From a virus: a stretch of 43,598 nt of DNA. The notes below the pieces were generated by a model. That model was given only the letters and a program-made list of their open reading frames with translations, had not been told where the DNA came from and searched no databases. The position numbers and the translations under genes are program-made. The number at the start of each line of letters is the position of its first letter. Within the stretch, counting starts at the first letter, position 1. Location of the stretch: the IMG/VR virus record IMGVR_UViG_3300042516_001040, positions 1-43,598 of that record; one strand, 5' to 3'. This document shows positions 8,678 through 38,432 of the stretch, piece by piece.

Positions 8678-10261
8678 ATGATAGTTAAACAGGTATTATT
8701 AGACGAGAATGGGCGCAACAAACTGAAGTCCGGCATCTCGATCATTGAGGCGGCAGTGTCCTCCACGTTGGGTCCTTGCGGACAGACGGTATTGGTAGAG
8801 TCAGAGAACCACATCGGTGGTGTGACGGTGACAAAGGACGGAGTGACTGTAGCCAGGTCTATTAACTTGTACGATCCTGTAGAGAACCTCGCTGTGCAGT
8901 TGGTACGTGAGGCGGCATCGAAGACAGCTACGATGGCAGGGGATGGCACAACAACGAGCATCGTGTTGACTAAGGCGATCATTGACTCGTTTGAGTCTAT
9001 GGCGCAGGGAGCCAACAAGACGGAGGTGCTGAGGAACATACAGATGTTTGCAGAGAAGGTGTGTAAGATATTAGACAAGAAGTCTAAGAGGGTTAATGGG
9101 AAGGTATTGCTAGATGTGGCAACGATTTCAGCGAACAACGATCCTGTGATAGGTAAGCTAATCGCTGATGTATATAGCCATGTGAGTTACGTTGTAGTGG
9201 AGAACAGTAAGACTACTAAGACCTACAGCGAGATAATCTCAGGTATTAGGGTTCAGCGTGGATGGACATCGAAGTACTTCGTGAATGACCACAAGAAGAA
9301 CGAGTGCGTGTTAGAGGATGCGTATGTGTTGGTAACAGATGGTGAGATAAGTAACTTAGCGAATATTGAGAATATATTGGCTCCAATAGTAAGAGACAAT
9401 AAGCCGTTGTTGATCATTGGTAACCTATCCCCACAGGTATTGGCTACGCTTAGTATGAACGTAGTGAAGAACAAGATACGTTGCTGTAACATTATGCCTC
9501 CTAACTTTGGATATAGGAAGGATGACATGATGCGCGACATCGCAGTAGCTCTTGGCGCACACTACTACAGCGAGTCTACCGGAGACAACTTATCGTTGTG
9601 TTCTATGGATGGCTTGGGTAAAGCGAAGAGAATAATCGTTGGTCAGGATAACACTGTGATCGTTCCGATGGAGGAGAGTCCGAAGTTGCATGACTACATC
9701 TTGCAGTTGCGAGAGAGTATAGAGCAGGAGACAATAGAGGCTGATGTGCAGTTCCTAAACGAGCGTATTGCCAACATCTTCGGTGGCATAGGTGTGATCT
9801 ACGTAGGGGCGCAGAGCGACATTGAGCAGAAGGAGTTGAGGGATAGGATCGATGACGCAGTGTTAGCAGTGAAGGCCGCCAAGGAAGAGGGTGTATTACC
9901 TGGAGCAGGGTTGGCGTTGATACGCGGTATGCATGGATTGGATGGGTTCAGTAAGGTGTTTAACGTGGACGAGTATGAGGCTGAGAAGATTATGCTCAAC
10001 GCGATGTATGCACCGTTCAAGAAGATATGCGCCAACGCAGGCCTTGTTTGGGAGGATATATTCGGTGAGCTAGTAGACGGAGGCTTTTGGCACGGTGTAG
10101 ACGTTAAGAACAATAAGTATGGCGACATGATGCGTATGGGTGTCATTGACCCATGTAAGGTTACTAAGAGTGCGCTGATGAACGCTGTGAGCGTTGCTGT
10201 GACGATATTGAGTACGAATGCGATAATAACTAACGTAAGAGATAATGATAGCACTAAATAG
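8678..10261 (+). CDS. groEL: Phage-encoded chaperonin GroEL (Cpn60)
   Basis: 527 aa covering the full-length GroEL (about 548 aa in E. coli), lacking the GGM-repeat tail and ending in DNDSTK. ATPase features are TLGPCGQTV near residue 30, GDGTTT with D89 (E. coli D87), and DDAVLAVKAAKEEG with D393 (E. coli D398), followed by LPGAGLALIRG. The apical domain retains KYF (E. coli Y203-F204), with Trp where Y199 is expected, indicating a binding surface adapted to different clients. It folds proteins in a GroES-capped double ring in the cytoplasm. Major capsid protein is the likely client, as in phages that need groE. Promoter TATATTTG and leader AATTAAATCAAATG precede it. groES follows, overlapping by 17 bp, the reverse of the bacterial groES-groEL order. 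Confidence 0.96.
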   Translation: MIVKQVLLDENGRNKLKSGISIIEAAVSSTLGPCGQTVLVESENHIGGVTVTKDGVTVARSINLYDPVENLAVQLVREAASKTATMAGDGTTTSIVLTKAIIDSFESMAQGANKTEVLRNIQMFAEKVCKILDKKSKRVNGKVLLDVATISANNDPVIGKLIADVYSHVSYVVVENSKTTKTYSEIISGIRVQRGWTSKYFVNDHKKNECVLEDAYVLVTDGEISNLANIENILAPIVRDNKPLLIIGNLSPQVLATLSMNVVKNKIRCCNIMPPNFGYRKDDMMRDIAVALGAHYYSESTGDNLSLCSMDGLGKAKRIIVGQDNTVIVPMEESPKLHDYILQLRESIEQETIEADVQFLNERIANIFGGIGVIYVGAQSDIEQKELRDRIDDAVLAVKAAKEEGVLPGAGLALIRGMHGLDGFSKVFNVDEYEAEKIMLNAMYAPFKKICANAGLVWEDIFGELVDGGFWHGVDVKNNKYGDMMRMGVIDPCKVTKSALMNAVSVAVTILSTNAIITNVRDNDSTK

Positions 10262-17233: not shown

Positions 17234-17797
17234 ATGCAATCACCACATTACTTTGTAATACGCCCCAACAAAGGCGTTAGGTACGATAATACGCGCCAAT
17301 ATGGCGATAAAGAGTTCATCATATCTTCCTCTCAAGAAGACCATACTGTAACAAATAGAGTAGGTATTGTTGAATCTGTTCCAATTGGATACGATGGTAA
17401 TATTAAACCAGGAGACCAAATAATCGTTCATCATAACGTCTTTCGTATATATTACGATATGAAGGGAGAAGAACGTTCAAGTTGGAATCATTACAAGGAT
17501 GACATATTTATTGTAGAAATGGATCAAGTGTTCTTGTACAGAGATCCAGAAGGTGATTGGTGTGCGCCATATCCGTTCTGTTTTGTTAAGCCAATTAATA
17601 AGGAAATAGATGAGAAGTTGGTTATTGACACAGGAATACTAATTCACTTGCATGGTATTATTGAGTATATTCCTGAAAATAATGTACTTAAGAAAGGAGA
17701 TATGGTTTCTTTTCAGCCAGAGTCAGAGTATGAGTTCAGAATAAACAATGAGATAATGTATCGCATAAAACTTAAGAACCTATGCTTAAAGATCTAA
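17234..17797 (+). CDS. GroES-like fold protein (two Cpn10-like segments), 187 aa
   Basis: A first Cpn10-like half has VTNRVGIVESVPIGYDGNIK, PGDQIIVHHNVFRIYYD. A second has GILIHLHGIIEYIPENNVLK, KGDMVSFQPESEYEFRINN, MYRIKLKNLCL. Both contain the G-x-V/I-x-x-V/I-x and K-x-GD-x-I/V pattern of the GroES barrel, but no recognisable mobile loop. I recall similar proteins (VHHNVFR-x-Y-DMKGEE) in Bacteroidota phage packaging regions. It could assist folding with the phage chaperonin or form a capsid-binding beta barrel. Its position directly before terminase argues for a virion or assembly role rather than a free co-chaperonin. Confidence 0.6.
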   Translation: MQSPHYFVIRPNKGVRYDNTRQYGDKEFIISSSQEDHTVTNRVGIVESVPIGYDGNIKPGDQIIVHHNVFRIYYDMKGEERSSWNHYKDDIFIVEMDQVFLYRDPEGDWCAPYPFCFVKPINKEIDEKLVIDTGILIHLHGIIEYIPENNVLKKGDMVSFQPESEYEFRINNEIMYRIKLKNLCLKI

Positions 17798-29934: not shown

Positions 29935-32900
29935 ATGCCTGAAGTAAAGAATACATTTGTAACAGGTATCATGAATAAAGACCTCGATGAGAGGCTTATA
30001 CCTGAAGGAGTATACATACACGCTGAGAACGTAAGTGTAGATAGTGCTGACGCAGGTGATATTGGTGCGGTAAAGAATCAGAGGGGTAATGTATTAATTG
30101 GTAACCTAGCAAATGTTACAAATAGAAACTTAACAAATGCTAGAACTATTGGTGCTGTAGCAAGCGAGAGGGACAATCTTATCTATTGGCTTGTTGCTGC
30201 GGATGAGTTTGATGGCATCTATGAATACAATGAGATATCAGGAACACTAGTTCGTGTATTGCAATCTAACAAGTCTACTCCTACAAGTATCAGTAAACTT
30301 AACTTCAATAAGGAGTTTGTTGTTACCGGAATAAACTACGTAAATGGTTTTCTTTTTTGGACTGACAACTATAATCCACCAAGAAAGATAAACATATCAA
30401 GAGTAAAGGCAGATGTGAATGGTAATGGTGGATATAATATTGATGATCCACGTATTGACCAAGACATTAGTGTAATAATGGCTCCTCCATTAAATGCGCC
30501 TAAGTTACGTTTTGAGAATACAGAAGATCCTACATTACTAGATCAGGCTAATAATATGGAGGATAGGTTCTTATACTTCTCTTATAGGTATAAGTACATT
30601 GATAATCAATACAGTGCGTTATCTCCATTCTCTGCCGTTGCATTTCAAGCAAAAGATTATTTAGTTGACTACAACGCAGGGTTTAATAAAGCCATGCTTA
30701 ATAAATATAATCGTGCTTACATTACTATATTCACAGGAAGTGAATTTATAAATGAGATACAGATTATAATGCGTGATGCGCGTAGTTTGAATACGTTTAT
30801 TGTTGATACTATTAACAAGGAAACACTTAATATATCTGACAATATATATAGAGAGATAGAGTTTAGTAATGACAAGACATATTCCGTTCTATCTCCAGAG
30901 CAATTGACTAGGCTTTTTGACAACGTGCCACTATTGGCAAAGGCTCAAGATTATGTTGGAAATAGAATAATGTATGGTAACTATACTCAGTTCTATGATG
31001 TTTTTGAGCAAGTTAGAATAGGTGTTGCATATAAGTCATACGATATACCTACAGAGGGTGCGCCAATACAAACATTTAGGTCTGACAGAGACTATCAGAT
31101 AGGAATCCAATACTTAGATAGTTATGGAAGAACTACAACTGTTTTGGCTCCTGATAATCAGAACATAAGCAGCACAATATATATACCTCCTTCGCAGTCA
31201 AACAAGGGGAATAGTCTTAAGGTTAGTGTTTGGAATAGACCCCCACAATGGGCTACCAACTACCGATTGGTTATTAAGCAAGGTAAGAGAGAATACTATA
31301 ACATTTTTCCTATCTACTTTTATTTGAAAGATCAATTTAGGTATTTCTTAATACATGAGTCAGATAAGGATAAGATTCCTGTAGGAGGGTATGTTATTTT
31401 TAAGTGTACTGCTATAGGACCAACATTTTCAAATAAGAAATACAAAGTAATTGAACTTAAGTCTCAACCTAAAAATTTTATTCAAGGCGCACAGGCAGGG
31501 CTTTATTTTAAAATAAAAGTTGATTCTCCACTAGAATTAAATAATACATTAGGTTTAAATACATTTTTTACTGATTCATCTGGTTTTTCAGCAACAAATT
31601 CAATACAAGGAACAATAGTCGTAAATCCAAATTCAAGTGTTAAATATGCTGAAAGTCCAATTTACTATGGTAATGCAAATGCAAATGCATTAACATTATC
31701 TTCACCGCCAACAAATCCAGCAATATCACCTAATAGATATAATTTTAATGGAAGTTATAGAATTACAGTTCAAGTTATAAGTACAACTCAGTTTAGATGG
31801 ACAAATGCTGTAGAATTTAATGGTTCATGGATAACGGCAAATATTTCTTTAAACACCCCATATTGGATTAATTTGGGTACTTCATCATTAGCCACAAATC
31901 AGCAATTAGGTCTAGGTGTATGGATTGTTTGGAATACACAACCTGTTATAGGTGATTCATGGAAAATAAATTTAAGAGGAGAAAGGCAATATCAATATTT
32001 TACAGCTGGGTCAGCATGGCCAACCGATTTAACATATGTCCCATTAGCAATAGATGTATATGTTGATCAACAAGTAATACCAGGAGATATAATAGAAATA
32101 AAAATAAATGAAACATTAAACCCAAATGCAGATAATACAACTCAAACATTTTATAGCAATGGATCATACGCTAATTTAGAAGAGTGGTTTGTAGAATCTT
32201 TAGCTTATCAAGATTTTAAATATACTGATAGAAATGGAGTTCCATTAAATGAAAATGCTATATCATTTAGAAGAGGATATAACTATACAGACATAGTATT
32301 TACTAATACTACACAATCAAGAATAACAAGCGGTCCTACAGGAAGTAATTATAGTACTATATTAAGTAGTCCTATGTTTATGATAATAAGAGGTAGTGGT
32401 GGAGGACCAGATGTAAATAGAATGTCTGCATCTATTACTCTTAGACGTTTTGATAATACATTGATTGCCGAAACAGCTCCGGAAGAAAATGACTTAGATG
32501 TTTATCACGAGTTAAGTAGAACGTTTCCTATTAGAAACAATCTACATAACGTAGTATGGACATATGCCGATGCTACAATATACCCAGGTTCAGCACCATT
32601 TGGAGGTTATACAAACTTAGGACAATTAAACACTAGTACAGCTCCGCTTCCAACGGATCAAATGCATAACTATGTTGTAGGTGAAAGCATTTATGTTACA
32701 ACAAATAATCCTAACCTACCTAATGGATACTATGAGATTCTTGCAACTCCTAATCCATATAATGTAATCATTGATTACGTTATGTTTACATATACTAGTG
32801 CATACGCAGGAACAGCAGGATACGACATAGATGAAAGAAATCAAACGACATCTGCAACAGTACCTGCTATTATTATGTTAAATAATCCATTAGCAACAGT

Positions 32901-33894
32901 CAACTCTGACTTCAATGCATGGGCATACGGTAATGGATTAGAAACAAATAGAATACGAGACGATTGGAACGGATTTACTTTACAATATAGTCCAAGAACA
33001 TCAGCTATTATCGATGGATACGGAAGAAAGGTAAGTAGAAATGCCATTTGCTATAGCAGTATTTATGGAGAGAACACTGGTATAAATAGGCTTAATGAGT
33101 TCAACCTATCTACAGCTAATTTCAAATACCTAGATGGTGAGTACGGATCTATTCAAAAGCTTTACGCTAGAGAGTCAGATGTACTTGTTTTACAGGAAGA
33201 TAAGATAAGTATCGTTCTTTATGAGAAGAACATCCTATCAGATGCAACAGGAGGAGGTTCTGTAGCTTCTATACCTGAGGTATTGGGTAATCAAGTAATG
33301 TTCCCACATGAGTACGGAATCAGTAAAAATCCTGAGTCTTTTGCTACATGGGGATCAGATGCGTTCTTTACAGATGCACGTAGAGGTGTAGTACTTGCAA
33401 TGTCAGATAATCAGCTAGTAGAGATATCTGATACAGGCATGAAGAATTATTTCATTGACTTATTAAGAGACTATCCTAATACTCAGAAGCTAGGAGCATA
33501 CGACCCTAATAATCAGTTGTATACATTGTCAAACAATAGTATAACAATACTAGGTTGTACACTTGCTTTGAGTAGAAATCAGTGGTCTGTTGGAAGGCCT
33601 GGAGGAAACAACTTTAATCTCTTCACAATCATCACAGATGTCAATTGGTCTTTATCGTTAGTTGATAATGGATTTGGTACGAATTGGGTTACAGGGTTCC
33701 AAACATCAGGATATCAATCTTCAGACATATTTGCAGATGTAGCAGTCAATACGGCAAACGTAGTTAGGTCTGTAATATTCAGAGTTACATATTGTGGAAA
33801 CACAGTTGACTTCACATTGATTCAAGGACGTTCTAAGCCTATTGTTTTGAATGTAGTTGTTAATCACGAACCACCACCAAAAACTAATAATTAA
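29935..33894 (+). CDS. Tail stabilisation/muzzle-type protein with BACON-like C-terminus, 1319 aa
   Basis: N-terminus MPEVKNTFVTGIMNKDLDER, LIPEGVYIHAENVSVDSADAG, NLIYWLVAADEFDGIYEYNE: the widely shared opening of stabilisation (P22 gp10/T7 gp12-like) proteins of Bacteroidota phages. Later parts include the SVWNRPPQWATNYRLVIKQG region, a divergent AT-rich central section (about nt 31,400-32,450), and VLQEDKISIVLYEKNILSDA. The last about 110 residues (CTLALSRNQWSVGRPG, NWSLSLVDNG, VRSVIFRVTYCGNTVDFTLIQG) read like a BACON domain, a fold that occurs on crAssphage tails and probably binds mucin or glycan. It likely closes the portal and anchors adhesins. Composition shift in the centre suggests an exchanged module. 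Confidence 0.85.
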   Translation: MPEVKNTFVTGIMNKDLDERLIPEGVYIHAENVSVDSADAGDIGAVKNQRGNVLIGNLANVTNRNLTNARTIGAVASERDNLIYWLVAADEFDGIYEYNEISGTLVRVLQSNKSTPTSISKLNFNKEFVVTGINYVNGFLFWTDNYNPPRKINISRVKADVNGNGGYNIDDPRIDQDISVIMAPPLNAPKLRFENTEDPTLLDQANNMEDRFLYFSYRYKYIDNQYSALSPFSAVAFQAKDYLVDYNAGFNKAMLNKYNRAYITIFTGSEFINEIQIIMRDARSLNTFIVDTINKETLNISDNIYREIEFSNDKTYSVLSPEQLTRLFDNVPLLAKAQDYVGNRIMYGNYTQFYDVFEQVRIGVAYKSYDIPTEGAPIQTFRSDRDYQIGIQYLDSYGRTTTVLAPDNQNISSTIYIPPSQSNKGNSLKVSVWNRPPQWATNYRLVIKQGKREYYNIFPIYFYLKDQFRYFLIHESDKDKIPVGGYVIFKCTAIGPTFSNKKYKVIELKSQPKNFIQGAQAGLYFKIKVDSPLELNNTLGLNTFFTDSSGFSATNSIQGTIVVNPNSSVKYAESPIYYGNANANALTLSSPPTNPAISPNRYNFNGSYRITVQVISTTQFRWTNAVEFNGSWITANISLNTPYWINLGTSSLATNQQLGLGVWIVWNTQPVIGDSWKINLRGERQYQYFTAGSAWPTDLTYVPLAIDVYVDQQVIPGDIIEIKINETLNPNADNTTQTFYSNGSYANLEEWFVESLAYQDFKYTDRNGVPLNENAISFRRGYNYTDIVFTNTTQSRITSGPTGSNYSTILSSPMFMIIRGSGGGPDVNRMSASITLRRFDNTLIAETAPEENDLDVYHELSRTFPIRNNLHNVVWTYADATIYPGSAPFGGYTNLGQLNTSTAPLPTDQMHNYVVGESIYVTTNNPNLPNGYYEILATPNPYNVIIDYVMFTYTSAYAGTAGYDIDERNQTTSATVPAIIMLNNPLATVNSDFNAWAYGNGLETNRIRDDWNGFTLQYSPRTSAIIDGYGRKVSRNAICYSSIYGENTGINRLNEFNLSTANFKYLDGEYGSIQKLYARESDVLVLQEDKISIVLYEKNILSDATGGGSVASIPEVLGNQVMFPHEYGISKNPESFATWGSDAFFTDARRGVVLAMSDNQLVEISDTGMKNYFIDLLRDYPNTQKLGAYDPNNQLYTLSNNSITILGCTLALSRNQWSVGRPGGNNFNLFTIITDVNWSLSLVDNGFGTNWVTGFQTSGYQSSDIFADVAVNTANVVRSVIFRVTYCGNTVDFTLIQGRSKPIVLNVVVNHEPPPKTNN

Positions 33895-33897
33895 TAT

Positions 33898-36774
33898 ATG
33901 TTTACTGATCAAGGTTTTTCATATACAGGAAGTCAAGACTTCGATATTAACAATATCAATCTTGGGCCATCACAAGTAGCTTTGTTTGATTCATTAACAG
34001 GTATTGGAGGTATTGACTTTATGCCTTATGATGGATCTACCGTAACCGCGTATACAGGGGCAATCAATACAGACCCATCATTGAAGAACTTTGAGCCATC
34101 ACTAAACAATAAACTATATTATTTAGTTACCAATGAAATATACGATGAGACTCAGAAAGACCTAATGATTTCATTAGCGACAGCTGTTCCTGTAGCATTG
34201 GTTGGTGGAAGGTATGAAGGAACGTTTGTATTCAGCAACCCAAATGATTACGACAACCTTTACTTGATATGGGACTATCAAGATAACTTAAATTCAGTAA
34301 CAGCTTCCTATGTCGGTAACGCTGCCACTAAATATATTAGCATTGACTTCACATCTGATAGAGGTATTGCAGGAGTTGACTACCAAACAGTAAGTGATCC
34401 GTGCAGGTATGTGCTTGAGTATAACAATGAAACATTATTTGATACAGGGTATATAGGACTTAATACAACAGCAAATGTATCCAATCTTTTGGCGGCAGGA
34501 ATACCTCAGGATGAGATAAAACTAGTGTTTCCTTACGATGGGTTAGTAGATAATGGAACTGGGCATTTGCTATTCAAAAAAGTGTTGGCAAATCCTAATG
34601 CAGTACTTACGGTATATTCTCCATTAAATAGTACTTCGTATATTTTAAACAGGGTATTACCATATCTTAATACGTTCTATATTGACACTACAGATGGTGA
34701 TATATCCACTGTATGTGGACAAACAGCAACCACACAATATTGGCATAATGGCTCAGGTACATATCCTATAACTGGAGATACAATATACATTGATGGATCG
34801 GGAGATGATCCATACAATGGAAATAATGCTTATCATTTAGTTAGTCAAACATCAATGATGTCTCCACCTATAAGTGGAGGTACATATGCATTTATAAATA
34901 CAAATGGATTAGTGCTACAGCATGGATCGTGTGATTGTAATGAGGCAGCTGTTCCATTTATTTATCAGGATGATATCCATCTAACTGAAGGAGATTCAAT
35001 CAACCTATATCTACAGGCATCAGGTAATCCTACTAGCTGGCAGATAAGCACATCATGTAGAACATATGAGATAACAGGTGGGACAAGAGGAACACTATGG
35101 TCATATACTGATTGCTACGGAAATAGTCAGAGTATAACTGTAGGTGTAGATAATGTACCGGTCTATGTGTGCTCTACTGGAGCACCAACTATAGTTGTTG
35201 GAGATGGTACGGACAGTGTTTATAATGACATATGTCCTGAGTTCTTACTTCCTAAAGGCCTAACGTTCTCATCAGAAACAGGAAACATTACAGGTGTTCC
35301 GGAAGAGTCATGCACATTTCCACTAAGAATAGAGGCTACAAACTGTGCTGGAACAAGCTCATCTAAGGATATAAGCATTGTTATTACCACAGGAATTAAG
35401 CTAACGCCATTCGCTATCGATGTGGAGAACTTCGGAGATACCGGAGATGCTGCGTGTGCTGTGTCACCAATCTATAGTCTGTTGTACCACAACGGACAGG
35501 GACGTGTTCCAGATGTTAATGACACCATATATACAGATGCTACGGCACAAATAAAATTCATGGGTGGTGGACAATGGTATCATATAGATCACTCTACGTA
35601 TTCAATCAAGATATGTGAGACAGGAAACGTATGCGAGAAGAACGAATGTCCTGTATCTACTACAACAACAACATCAACTACTACCACGACTACTACAACT
35701 ACTCTTCCAACTGGAGATTGGTTTGATGCAGCACTATGTACTGATCCAACAGTTAAAGGTATTTTATTTGATTCAACTACATTTGGTATTGTTGCAGGTG
35801 ATTATGTTAAGACAAACGATGGTAACTGTTGGCAAATAGCATCAGTTACTACAGCAACGTTCCCATACCAAACGATTGAGAACCCTGTCAACCTTTATAT
35901 TGACTGCAACGATTGTCTTGGAATAACAACAACAACCACTACAACAACAACTACAACCATTCCAACATATGGATCATTTAATATGGATCCTAACCAATAC
36001 ACATCGGCATACGATGCGTGTAGCAATACAGGAGGGCCATATACACTGTACTATCACAATGGAGTGTCCTCGTTACCATCTATAGGTGACTTCGTATACT
36101 TTGACTCACTAGGTTTAAACCCTGTGATTGGTGATGGATATTGGTACAACGTTCCAACGATGGGTGGTGACCTAGCTATTCAAATCGCATCTACCGGACA
36201 AGTATTAAATGTATTGTCGTGTTCAACAACAACTACAAGTACAACTACTACAACAACACCAACTAATTATTACCTTGCTAGAATATGTGGTTCAGCTGGT
36301 CCTAACGTAACGATAGGGCATCAGTCTATATCTACTCTAAGTAATGGCACAGTAGTTAAGTGTGACGATGGTAACTGCTATACGATACAGAACACAGGCT
36401 CATTCGCTCCATCTGTACCAATGATATTGTTTACGTATCCTAACTGCTTCGCGTGTACAGGCATTACTACAACAACAACGACAACATCTACAACAACAAC
36501 TACGACAACGTCTAGTACGACTACAACTACGACTACAACGCTTCCTCCATTGACAAACATATTCATGAGGTTTGGAACAGTAGAGGCAGTATGTAACGGA
36601 AACATTGGTCAGTACTACGTTGATGCGCCTGTGGGGATTAGCGGAAACAACATATACAAATTGTTGTTCGGAAATTATGTTCTTGCAAATGCAGGATATT
36701 ACAGACAAATTAATAGCTTTGTTGCTTACGAGTGGGACGGCACTGACTGGACCGGTAATTCAATAGGATGCTAA
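33898..36774 (+). CDS. Modular adhesin with four poly-threonine linkers, 958 aa
   Basis: N-terminal about 250 residues are beta-rich virion-docking domains (SQVALFDSLTGIGGIDFM, ISIDFTSDRGIAGVD). Then come Cys-containing modules of the type YHNG-x3-P-x-x-GD-x-I/VY-x-D at roughly 280, 515 and 705. An Ig-like/He_PIG segment (LPKGLTFSSETGNITGVPEE) lies near 460. Further modules are separated by Thr tracts at residues 587-602, 677-687, 777-787 and 857-881. Modules after the first and third tracts are homologous (YVKTNDGNCWQI versus VVKCDDGNCYTI, each ending in a CLGI/CTGI-type end). Such tracts resemble mucin-like, O-glycosylatable linkers. Likely a tail adhesin. Its stop overlaps the glycosyltransferase-like gene by 7 bp. 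Confidence 0.82.
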   Translation: MFTDQGFSYTGSQDFDINNINLGPSQVALFDSLTGIGGIDFMPYDGSTVTAYTGAINTDPSLKNFEPSLNNKLYYLVTNEIYDETQKDLMISLATAVPVALVGGRYEGTFVFSNPNDYDNLYLIWDYQDNLNSVTASYVGNAATKYISIDFTSDRGIAGVDYQTVSDPCRYVLEYNNETLFDTGYIGLNTTANVSNLLAAGIPQDEIKLVFPYDGLVDNGTGHLLFKKVLANPNAVLTVYSPLNSTSYILNRVLPYLNTFYIDTTDGDISTVCGQTATTQYWHNGSGTYPITGDTIYIDGSGDDPYNGNNAYHLVSQTSMMSPPISGGTYAFINTNGLVLQHGSCDCNEAAVPFIYQDDIHLTEGDSINLYLQASGNPTSWQISTSCRTYEITGGTRGTLWSYTDCYGNSQSITVGVDNVPVYVCSTGAPTIVVGDGTDSVYNDICPEFLLPKGLTFSSETGNITGVPEESCTFPLRIEATNCAGTSSSKDISIVITTGIKLTPFAIDVENFGDTGDAACAVSPIYSLLYHNGQGRVPDVNDTIYTDATAQIKFMGGGQWYHIDHSTYSIKICETGNVCEKNECPVSTTTTTSTTTTTTTTTLPTGDWFDAALCTDPTVKGILFDSTTFGIVAGDYVKTNDGNCWQIASVTTATFPYQTIENPVNLYIDCNDCLGITTTTTTTTTTTIPTYGSFNMDPNQYTSAYDACSNTGGPYTLYYHNGVSSLPSIGDFVYFDSLGLNPVIGDGYWYNVPTMGGDLAIQIASTGQVLNVLSCSTTTTSTTTTTTPTNYYLARICGSAGPNVTIGHQSISTLSNGTVVKCDDGNCYTIQNTGSFAPSVPMILFTYPNCFACTGITTTTTTTSTTTTTTTSSTTTTTTTTLPPLTNIFMRFGTVEAVCNGNIGQYYVDAPVGISGNNIYKLLFGNYVLANAGYYRQINSFVAYEWDGTDWTGNSIGC
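35656..35703 (+). repeat. Poly-Thr linker 1 (residues 587-602)
   Basis: Sixteen Thr/Ser codons. ACA, ACT, ACC and ACG are mixed, so the tract is kept at protein level while avoiding pure DNA repeats. Confidence 0.85.
35926..35958 (+). repeat. Poly-Thr linker 2 (residues 677-687)
   Basis: Eleven consecutive Thr codons, mixed ACA/ACT/ACC, between module 1 and module 2 of the adhesin. Confidence 0.85.
36226..36258 (+). repeat. Poly-Thr linker 3 (residues 777-787)
   Basis: Eleven codons, ten Thr and one Ser, between modules 2 and 3. Confidence 0.85.
36466..36540 (+). repeat. Poly-Thr/Ser linker 4 (residues 857-881)
   Basis: 25 Thr/Ser codons, the longest tract, using ACA, ACT and ACG with TCT and AGT for Ser, before the C-terminal module. 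Confidence 0.85.
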
Positions 36775-37682
36775 AACTTATTTCAGCTCAACCTGCTATA
36801 GACTATTACGCTTGGCAGGTTGAAGTATACCTCCACAACTTCCTATCGCTAGGATACAAGGAAGAAGATATTCATGTGGTTGCAGGACACCTTGAAGATA
36901 TACCAGAGTCTTGGTATAAATTAAAGGCAAAGTTCCCTAATATAGGAATATACTTCTACCAAGATACAATGGGAGAGTGCAACTATCCTCCTGCAATACA
37001 GGCACATATACTAGAGAAGCACTTCAGACAGCACGCATATCTTAAGGACTGCGCTGTATTCTTCCACGACTGCGACTTCATATTTACTAGGTATTTCGAC
37101 TTCGCCCCATTTCTAAAAGACGATAAGTGGTACTTCAGTGATACTATCAGCTACATTGGAGCTAACTACATTAAGAGCAAGGATGAGTCTATCCTTGATG
37201 GTATGTGCCAAATAATAGGCATAGATAAGTCAGTAGTTGAGGCCAATCAGAATAACTCCGGTGGAGCGCAGAAGTTAATGAAGAACATTGATGCATCCTA
37301 TTGGAACGAAGTATATAAAGGATGTAGAGACCTGTATTCATACCTAAAGTCAGTAACGCATCTGAAGAAGGAAGGTGATCCATACGGCATACAATCGTGG
37401 ACAGCGAGTATGTGGGCAGAGTTATGGATAGCATGGAGAAGGGGGCATGAGGTTGTTGTGCCTAGGGAGTTTGACTTCTGTTGGGCTACGTGTCCATCTG
37501 AGAGATGGGACTACGTGCATTTCTTCCACAATGCCGGAGTGCCTAATGCATCGCAGGGTATGTTCTTTAAGGCTGCATATATTGACAAGTTTCCATTCAA
37601 GGAAACATTAGATATTAACAAAAGCAGATGCTCTCATATGTACTATAAAGCTATGAAGTCTGTGGATAGTTGTTTGGTATAA
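36768..37682 (+). CDS. Glycosyltransferase-like protein (GT-A type, DCD motif), 304 aa
   Basis: Opens MLKLISAQPAIDYYAWQVEV, then LHNFLSLGYKEEDIHVVAGH. It has FFHDCDFIF with D101-x-D103, the place and form of the DxD nucleotide-sugar/metal motif of GT-A transferases. Further features are QAHILEKHF, SWTASMWAELWIAWRRGHEV and a C-terminal HFFHNAGVPN segment. I recognise this family from Bacteroidota phages as uncharacterised or glycosyltransferase. It starts inside the adhesin gene's stop (7-bp overlap) and so is coupled to it, suggesting it modifies the adhesin's Thr tracts. Cytoplasmic; no membrane helix. The donor and acceptor are unknown; a GT call is from motifs only. Confidence 0.68.
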   Translation: MLKLISAQPAIDYYAWQVEVYLHNFLSLGYKEEDIHVVAGHLEDIPESWYKLKAKFPNIGIYFYQDTMGECNYPPAIQAHILEKHFRQHAYLKDCAVFFHDCDFIFTRYFDFAPFLKDDKWYFSDTISYIGANYIKSKDESILDGMCQIIGIDKSVVEANQNNSGGAQKLMKNIDASYWNEVYKGCRDLYSYLKSVTHLKKEGDPYGIQSWTASMWAELWIAWRRGHEVVVPREFDFCWATCPSERWDYVHFFHNAGVPNASQGMFFKAAYIDKFPFKETLDINKSRCSHMYYKAMKSVDSCLV

Positions 37683-37688
37683 ATTCAT

Positions 37689-37696
37689 TACCTTTG
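37689..37696 (+). promoter_or_regulatory. Promoter -7 box TACCTTTG, leaderless type
   Basis: TACCTTTG then CACT and the ATG at 37701 (4-nt spacer). TTG at 37670 is 16 nt upstream, shorter than the usual -33 spacing. Confidence 0.58.
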
Positions 37697-37700
37697 CACT

Positions 37701-38432
37701 ATGCCAAATCCTAATACATTAACGTATTCTCCATCTTCTAACGGCTGGACTTCGTTCTGGAGTTACAACCCAGATTGGATGTTGGGATTGAATAGTTCGT
37801 TCTATACGTGGAAGTTAGGTGAGTTGTATAAGCACGACTCTAATAACATTCGTAATAGTTTTTATGGCAGTAGTTATTCTTCTAAAATAACAACTGTCTT
37901 CAATCAAGAACCTACGCAGAACAAAGTCTTTAAGACATTGGATCTAGAGAGTACACATCCTTGGAGTGCTACATTTACTACAGACTTAAGTAATGGATAT
38001 AATGACTCTAGTTACTTCGTTGAGAAAGAAGGTTCATGGATGACATATATTCATAGCCTTGCAGGAACTAATGATAACCATGAGCTATACACACAAGGTA
38101 TTGGTCAAGTAGTTTCGTTAACTCCTCCAAATACTATCGTATTTAATTCAGTTGATAGTAACATTAGCGTAGGAGATCAGCTGTATATATTCGATACAGT
38201 ATTAAGCACATTAACACTAATTGGCTCGGTTACAGGCAGAACAGACACTACTGTTTCATATTCTGTTATTTTGTCTCCTGCCGTTGGTAATAACATAGTA
38301 TACATTAAGAACAACTTAGCTGAGTCTTTTGGACTTAGAGGATATTATATGCAGGTAGAGTTATCTATACTTGAGGGTAATCCTGTTGAGTTGTTTGAGG
38401 TATCGTCATCAGTATTTAAAAGTTACCCTTAA
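37701..38432 (+). CDS. Structural (tail/virion) protein, 243 aa
   Basis: SNGWTSFWSYNPDWMLGLNS, then FYTWKLGELYKHDSNNIRNS, FYGSSYSSKITTVFNQEPTQ, NKVFKTLDLEST. The G-W-T-S-F-x-S-Y-x-P-x-x-M-x-G-x-N order is familiar from virion proteins of Bacteroidota phages. Beta-rich C-terminal part (FNSVDSNISVGDQLYIFDTV). Probably a tail or baseplate-type component that works with the adhesin. It heads a new leaderless transcript that continues through the internal virion genes. Confidence 0.76.
   Translation: MPNPNTLTYSPSSNGWTSFWSYNPDWMLGLNSSFYTWKLGELYKHDSNNIRNSFYGSSYSSKITTVFNQEPTQNKVFKTLDLESTHPWSATFTTDLSNGYNDSSYFVEKEGSWMTYIHSLAGTNDNHELYTQGIGQVVSLTPPNTIVFNSVDSNISVGDQLYIFDTVLSTLTLIGSVTGRTDTTVSYSVILSPAVGNNIVYIKNNLAESFGLRGYYMQVELSILEGNPVELFEVSSSVFKSYP

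Follow-up and report, generated by a model that had tools for sequence, protein, structure and literature searches.

The 43.6-kb virus record IMGVR_UViG_3300042516_001040, analyzed here over its whole length and called the window below, carries two overlapping genes on its plus strand, which specify a 958-amino-acid (aa) protein with four threonine/serine (Thr/Ser) tracts and a 304-aa protein of the PHROG_4417 family. We predict that the latter is a glycosyltransferase that modifies the tracts of the former. The pair is flanked by muzzle-type genes, and we consider the window to be related to the Crassvirales because of its matches to the crAss muzzle, in the 1319-aa open reading frame (ORF) upstream, and to the muzzle C-terminal domain, in the 243-aa ORF downstream. 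The features of the locus are as follows.

29935..33894, plus strand: 1319-aa N-terminal muzzle protein (Pfam crAss_MUZ, E 2e-9; PHROG_14478, E 1e-174).
33898..36774, plus strand: 958-aa poly-Thr virion protein, C-terminal extension of the muzzle on a separate ORF, proposed glycosylation substrate (PHROG_14478 in the N-terminal part, PHROG_21885 in the modules).
35656..35703, plus strand: Thr/Ser tract 1, 16 residues, aa 587-602 (codons diverge synonymously among relatives).
35926..35958, plus strand: Thr tract 2, 11 residues, aa 677-687.
36223..36258, plus strand: Thr/Ser tract 3, 12 residues, aa 776-787, the leading Ser counted.
36466..36540, plus strand: Thr/Ser tract 4, 25 residues, aa 857-881.
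36768..37682, plus strand: 304-aa PHROG_4417 protein, predicted GT-A-fold glycosyltransferase, proposed tract-glycosylating enzyme (profile match, AlphaFold 2 model, Foldseek).
37068..37076, plus strand: DxD motif D101-C102-D103 (both Asp residues invariant across the 117 homologues).
37527..37538, plus strand: HNAG motif (H254 and G257 invariant in the 117-homologue alignment), candidate third metal ligand as in GT8 enzymes, a role suggested by known GT8 structures.
37701..38432, plus strand: 243-aa muzzle C-terminal-domain protein, anchor gene in one presence/absence contrast (Pfam crAss_MUZ_C, E 2.5e-17).

The crAss muzzle is spread across three ORFs in the window (29935-38432), the first two of which are a single ORF of more than 2000 aa in several relatives. 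The counterparts of the 1319-aa and 958-aa proteins form one continuous ORF in two relatives, which is 2164 aa long in L050 and 2057 aa long in L056. The relative L544 is devoid of the 304-aa gene, and its muzzle gives no match to the poly-Thr extension. Judging by this ORF arrangement, the 958-aa protein is therefore the split-off C-terminal extension of a crAss-type tail-tip muzzle. The original prediction had called it an adhesin, a label that the ORF continuity in L050 and L056 makes inexact; as the muzzle of phicrAss001 is a hexamer situated at the tail tip (PMC10172136), we prefer to speak of a tail-tip extension.

As had been noted from the sequence, the modules between the tracts contain Cys; two module pairs are recognizably alike (M0 and M2, E 8e-13; M1 and M3, E 1e-4). 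The tract lengths originally given as 16, 11, 11, and 25 residues stand for tracts 1, 2, and 4, whereas tract 3 has 12 with its leading Ser. All four ACN codons are indeed used (ACA 30, ACT 17, ACG 7, ACC 3), along with seven Ser codons, and no run of at least 10 Thr/Ser residues beyond these four occurs in the six frames of the window. In comparison with the closest relative, L001, the tracts differ by 35 synonymous changes of codon, by 7 exchanges between Thr and Ser, and by 2 further replacements, and the remainder of the protein differs by 192 replacements. This codon divergence rules out slippage or a microsatellite as the origin of the tracts, which stay almost wholly Thr/Ser in relatives of only 43-59% overall identity. 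From these comparisons, selection can be taken to act on the Thr/Ser residue and not on the DNA repeat.

The original prediction linked the tracts to the general O-glycosylation system that Bacteroidota possess, and the Crassvirales, to which this group of phages is related, infect Bacteroidota. One could imagine that the host system modifies the tracts, with the phage gene being unrelated or only extending the glycan. However, the D-S/T-[AILVMT] sequon of that system is absent from the tracts, all eight occurrences in the 958-aa protein lying elsewhere, which leaves the proposed link unsupported. Moreover, the system is extracytoplasmic, whereas virion assembly takes place in the cytoplasm, and the same pairing of gene and tract is found in Bacillota phages. 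We regard modification by the host as extremely improbable.

The 304-aa ORF begins within the end of the 958-aa ORF, the two sharing the 7-bp overlap (ATGCTAA) originally reported. Its product is matched along its full length by the PHROG_4417 profile (E 1.1e-62; residues 2-300 versus profile positions 1-292 of 293), a family labeled as of unknown function, some members of which are annotated "prophage pi2 protein 34". An AlphaFold 2 model built on an alignment of 117 homologues has a predicted local distance difference test score (pLDDT) of 97.3 and a predicted template modeling (TM) score of 0.93, whereas single-sequence AlphaFold reached a pLDDT of only 42. When this model was compared with the PDB using Foldseek, the 50 matches listed all read as GT-A-type transferases (best E 1e-6, probability 1.00), among them UGGT, LgtC, glycogenin, XXYLT1, and blood-group transferases. 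The structure prediction thus bears out the GT-A context in which a DCD motif had been perceived; the motif itself, at residues 101-103, is the invariant DxD of the 117 homologues. LgtC holds its Mn2+ through the DxD and a C-terminal His, and by analogy H254 and the DxD of the phage protein may be the equivalent metal ligands. Sequence searches of the PDB returned spurious matches (TAL-effector, geminin) and no sequence-level match to any relevant solved structure. A 566-aa homologue without a poly-Thr neighbor or a Pfam match is encoded in a bacterial contig of Mucilaginibacter oryzae (L281:6001-7701) and is possibly a cellular relative or a prophage remnant.

The pairing seen in the window is widespread. 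Each of the first 73 homologues from viruses has, just upstream, a gene encoding a Thr-rich tract, and this includes homologues of only 36-44% identity in unrelated contigs. Counting 127 non-redundant PHROG_4417-family loci, with a tract defined as at least 6 residues and the poly-Thr gene required to be on the same strand, such a gene is present in 118; it occupies position -1 in 102 of 125 loci and position +1 in none of 124. In the Bacillota phages, all 38 loci have the tract gene, and most of the tracts form the C-terminal tail of a capsid, head, or major-tail protein; the same tail is often shared by two or three of a phage's virion proteins. Examples are the tail proteins of bIL285 (TTTTTTTTTRHD) and Lactococcus phage 1706 (TTTTTTTTTTHHD) and the capsid protein of Enterococcus phage 4995_1 (GTTTTTTKPTTTTTTTQA); a Levilactobacillus phage carries TTV repeats instead. 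The cultured phages with the pairing are Bacillota phages and a Chryseobacterium phage, in which the enzyme gene follows that for the capsid, the major tail, or a small virion protein, and in each of the 12 cultured-phage records sampled, a virion protein encoded nearby has a TTV repeat or a tail or tract rich in Thr.

We also examined contrasts in presence and absence anchored on the capsid, tail-tube, muzzle-C, or ring-protein genes and not on the enzyme. Relatives anchored on the Enterococcus capsid comprise 56 loci with tail and gene, 13 with neither, 2 with the tail only, and 1 with the gene only. The two tail-only loci stop at the capsid stop codon, and in the gene-only locus the capsid gene is frameshifted, with the tail on the second fragment; capsids of 84-86% identity without the enzyme gene end in LAPTPSK or LAPASK. 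Relatives anchored on the bIL285 tail protein (tail tube) include 11 with both, 34 with neither, and none discordant, even though here the enzyme gene follows the capsid gene and not the tail gene, about 1.3 kb off. The morphogenesis modules of L474 and L486 are related, with tblastx segments reaching 92% identity; L474 differs by about 850 extra bases at the position of the enzyme gene, an insertion matching that gene in size, and by its Thr9 tail. For the crAss-like loci with at least 5 kb upstream of the muzzle-C anchor, the counts are 11 both, 58 neither, 3 gene-only, and 1 tract-only (Fisher p 1e-9); in two of the gene-only loci, L625 and L637, the enzyme ORF is 584 aa long and the muzzle is rich in Thr (12%), with runs of TTTT. 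The ring-protein-anchored crAss set, which reaches the enzyme gene only at contig ends, yielded 12 poly-Thr loci, with the enzyme gene in 10 of the 10 that have any sequence left. The strength of these contrasts is their repetition across unrelated acceptor proteins.

They also bear on the idea that the enzyme alters the host surface (teichoic acid, O-antigen, or cell-wall polysaccharide) against superinfection, its position in a structural operon being incidental. Conversion of the host surface by phage-encoded glycosyltransferases is well known, and PMC12619734 mentions modification of host serotype. Yet the presence of the PHROG_4417 gene tracks the poly-Thr tails on capsid, tail-tube, and muzzle proteins; the gene is mostly placed within the late morphogenesis operon and not in the lysogeny region; and neither the 304-aa sequence nor its model has an obvious membrane segment. 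Action on the host surface is consequently improbable in our estimate.

Further transferases accompany the enzyme gene in many environmental phages. Among 84 proteins encoded by the two genes 3' of PHROG_4417 in environmental phages, we found Glycos_transf_2 (16), Gly_transf_sug (9), Caps_synth (6), FkbM methyltransferase (4), GT29 sialyltransferase (3), and GT6 (2) domains. In a crAss-like phage the PHROG_4417 domain is fused to a GT2-like domain in a 584-aa protein (L625:7234-8988), and L637 has an ORF of equal length. In environmental phages, GT29 genes lie directly 3' of the PHROG_4417 gene at L243:6909-7475 and L218:2371-2871, an FkbM-type methyltransferase follows it at L242:6921-7553, and methyltransferases and radical SAM/SPASM proteins recur downstream of it. 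No annotated glycosyltransferase adjoins the enzyme gene in the window phage or in those cultured phages of Bacillota that were inspected, as would be compatible with a simple glycan.

We propose, with a probability of roughly 0.86, that PHROG_4417 is a cytoplasmic GT-A glycosyltransferase which O-glycosylates poly-Thr tags on the phage's own virion proteins. It would transfer, in a metal-dependent reaction, a sugar from a nucleotide donor to the Thr (and Ser) hydroxyls of the tracts, before or during virion assembly. In the window phage, the acceptor would be the tail-tip extension of the muzzle; in the Bacillota phages, it would be the C-terminal tails of the major capsid, small head, and major tail proteins. 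The tract would then serve as a transferable acceptor tag and PHROG_4417 as the first-acting enzyme, with enzymes encoded downstream in many environmental phages potentially extending or capping the glycan. This proposal is supported by the fold, the invariant motifs, the linkage of tag and gene, their joint presence or absence in close relatives, and the adjacent or fused glycosyltransferases. The original idea that the phage glycosylates its own adhesin is partly supported by the fold, motifs, and linkage, with the proposed substrate now being the muzzle extension. The sugar coat might make the linkers rigid, shield the virion from recognition, or promote adhesion such as glycan binding, as originally suggested in part, or it might protect against proteases.

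Several observations weigh against the proposal. The Foldseek TM-scores are moderate (0.3-0.52), so that the clan is secure but the family and the sugar are not. The 304-aa protein matches no Pfam family at E<=1, and no Pfam glycosyltransferase model comes above cut-off in the PHROG_4417 family, in which single members give weak matches only (HPAT best, E 0.0038; Gly_transf_sug); likewise, no specific CAZy or Pfam glycosyltransferase family (GT8, GT32, GT95, etc.) is reached at its curated cut-off. Nine of the 127 loci lack a tract of at least 6 residues, some of these being T-rich or having the acceptor out of reach. Where the tag gene is a direct neighbor, as in the crAss-like and Chryseobacterium loci, hitch-hiking could account for part of the linkage. 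Many of the records in the contrasts are nearly identical, so that the counts far exceed the number of independent gains. Finally, an (ACN)11 scan of viral contigs yielded 51 poly-Thr loci with room for a PHROG_4417 member but without one. The original prediction had held that related phages should not keep poly-Thr proteins without the gene. This is borne out by the muzzle-, capsid-, and tail-tube-anchored relatives, save for an 8-residue tract in a neighboring gene of L615. Poly-Thr ORFs elsewhere in viral contigs, such as those 51 loci, often lack the family, and a rule that poly-Thr implies PHROG_4417 has to be rejected, poly-Thr proteins being far commoner than the family in the scan.

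The commonest Pfam family in the downstream neighbors of poly-Thr genes without PHROG_4417 is Glycos_transf_2 (5 of 58), which suggests that other enzymes can fill its role there. Loci of this kind (L284-L402) have long poly-Thr tracts in many other phage proteins, and some have a GT2 or GT1-type transferase downstream. The frequent absence of PHROG_4417 beside poly-Thr proteins could also mean that the tracts work unmodified, as flexible linkers or in protein-protein contacts, with the linked protein being a GT-A-fold assembly factor or a non-sugar nucleotidyltransferase acting on the same proteins; other nucleotide-binding enzymes too have GT-A-like folds, and sugar transfer by PHROG_4417 is a prediction. 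On the other hand, its DxD and His are invariant, its best fold matches are sugar transferases, it occurs fused to a GT2-like domain and beside GT2, GT32-like, GT6, and GT29 genes, and Glycos_transf_2 is the commonest Pfam family downstream of poly-Thr genes where it is missing. This alternative is hence very improbable.

Enzyme and Thr runs coincide almost without exception in hundreds of related phage sequences from two bacterial phyla, and many phages therefore probably coat their own particles with sugar by means of a portable tag-enzyme pair. It is moderately likely that tag and enzyme have spread as such between unrelated Bacillota and Bacteroidota phages, being joined to virion proteins without relation to each other (capsid, head, tail tube, muzzle, and other tail proteins) and to interchangeable downstream transferases, to produce phage-specific, sometimes GT29-capped, mucin-like coats. 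The proposed role of PHROG_4417 would, if right, provide a function for a widespread unnamed phage family, allow phages with sugar-coated capsids, tails, and tail tips (including Lactococcus, Lactobacillus, Enterococcus, and crAss-like phages) to be predicted from sequence alone, and show how such a tag is gained, namely by lengthening a protein at its C-terminus with a short poly-Thr stretch and acquiring one enzyme gene. In addition, it would offer a small cytoplasmic enzyme and a minimal peptide tag for protein glycosylation. Elsewhere in the window, the phage has its own GroEL (8678-10261; PHROG_5725, E 2.5e-126) and GroES (17234-17797; PHROG_13932, E 1.9e-18), with about 7 kb between them.

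To our knowledge, only a few phages glycosylate their virions. In the mycobacteriophages Che8, Corndog, and Myrna, the capsid and tail-tube proteins are modified by glycosyltransferases that the phage itself encodes, according to three sources (Freeman et al. 2023, via PMC12363180, PMC12619734, PMC11256854), two of which place the glycans at the C-termini of these proteins (PMC12363180, PMC12619734). The Bacillota phages considered here resemble them in their proposed target, which is of the same kind, namely capsid and tail C-termini. In the PHROG_4417 phages, the enzyme gene is tied genetically to the capsid or tail proteins that bear the proposed acceptor. The mycobacteriophage system differs in that Che8 gp108-110 belong to the GT2 and GT25 types, gp108 having a methyltransferase domain as well, in that the Che8 glycosyltransferase genes are far from the capsid and tail genes, and in that the Che8 capsid ends in ...FNKTGS and its major tail protein in ...YSDGS, with no poly-Thr. 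Homology of PHROG_4417 to gp108-110 was rejected (hhalign probability 0.1-0.3%). The literature searched for PHROG_4417, "prophage pi2 protein 34", and LP65 Orf49 yielded no glycosyltransferase role or link to poly-Thr, and the searchable literature, with most subscription papers lying outside the search, no description of the pairing of poly-Thr, virion protein, and glycosyltransferase. Hence, the kind of system is known, and the enzyme family, the acceptor tag, and their distribution appear to be undescribed in the searchable literature.

By fold, the 304-aa protein resembles Orf49 of Lactobacillus phage LP65 (TM 0.75). With GT8/GT24/GT6-type enzymes (LgtC, glycogenin, the UGGT catalytic domain, and the blood-group transferases) it shares the GT-A fold, the DxD, and the C-terminal His/Gly motif, but with an identity of about 10% and TM-scores of 0.40-0.52; glycogenin and UGGT act on proteins, as proposed for PHROG_4417. 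The eukaryotic mucin-type domains offer a further parallel in their long Thr/Ser tracts and their initiating and elongating or capping transferases (GT29 in some of the phages). In contrast to these, the phage enzyme would be cytoplasmic and belongs to an unrelated family, and its tracts are near-pure Thr with little Pro and are borne by virion proteins.

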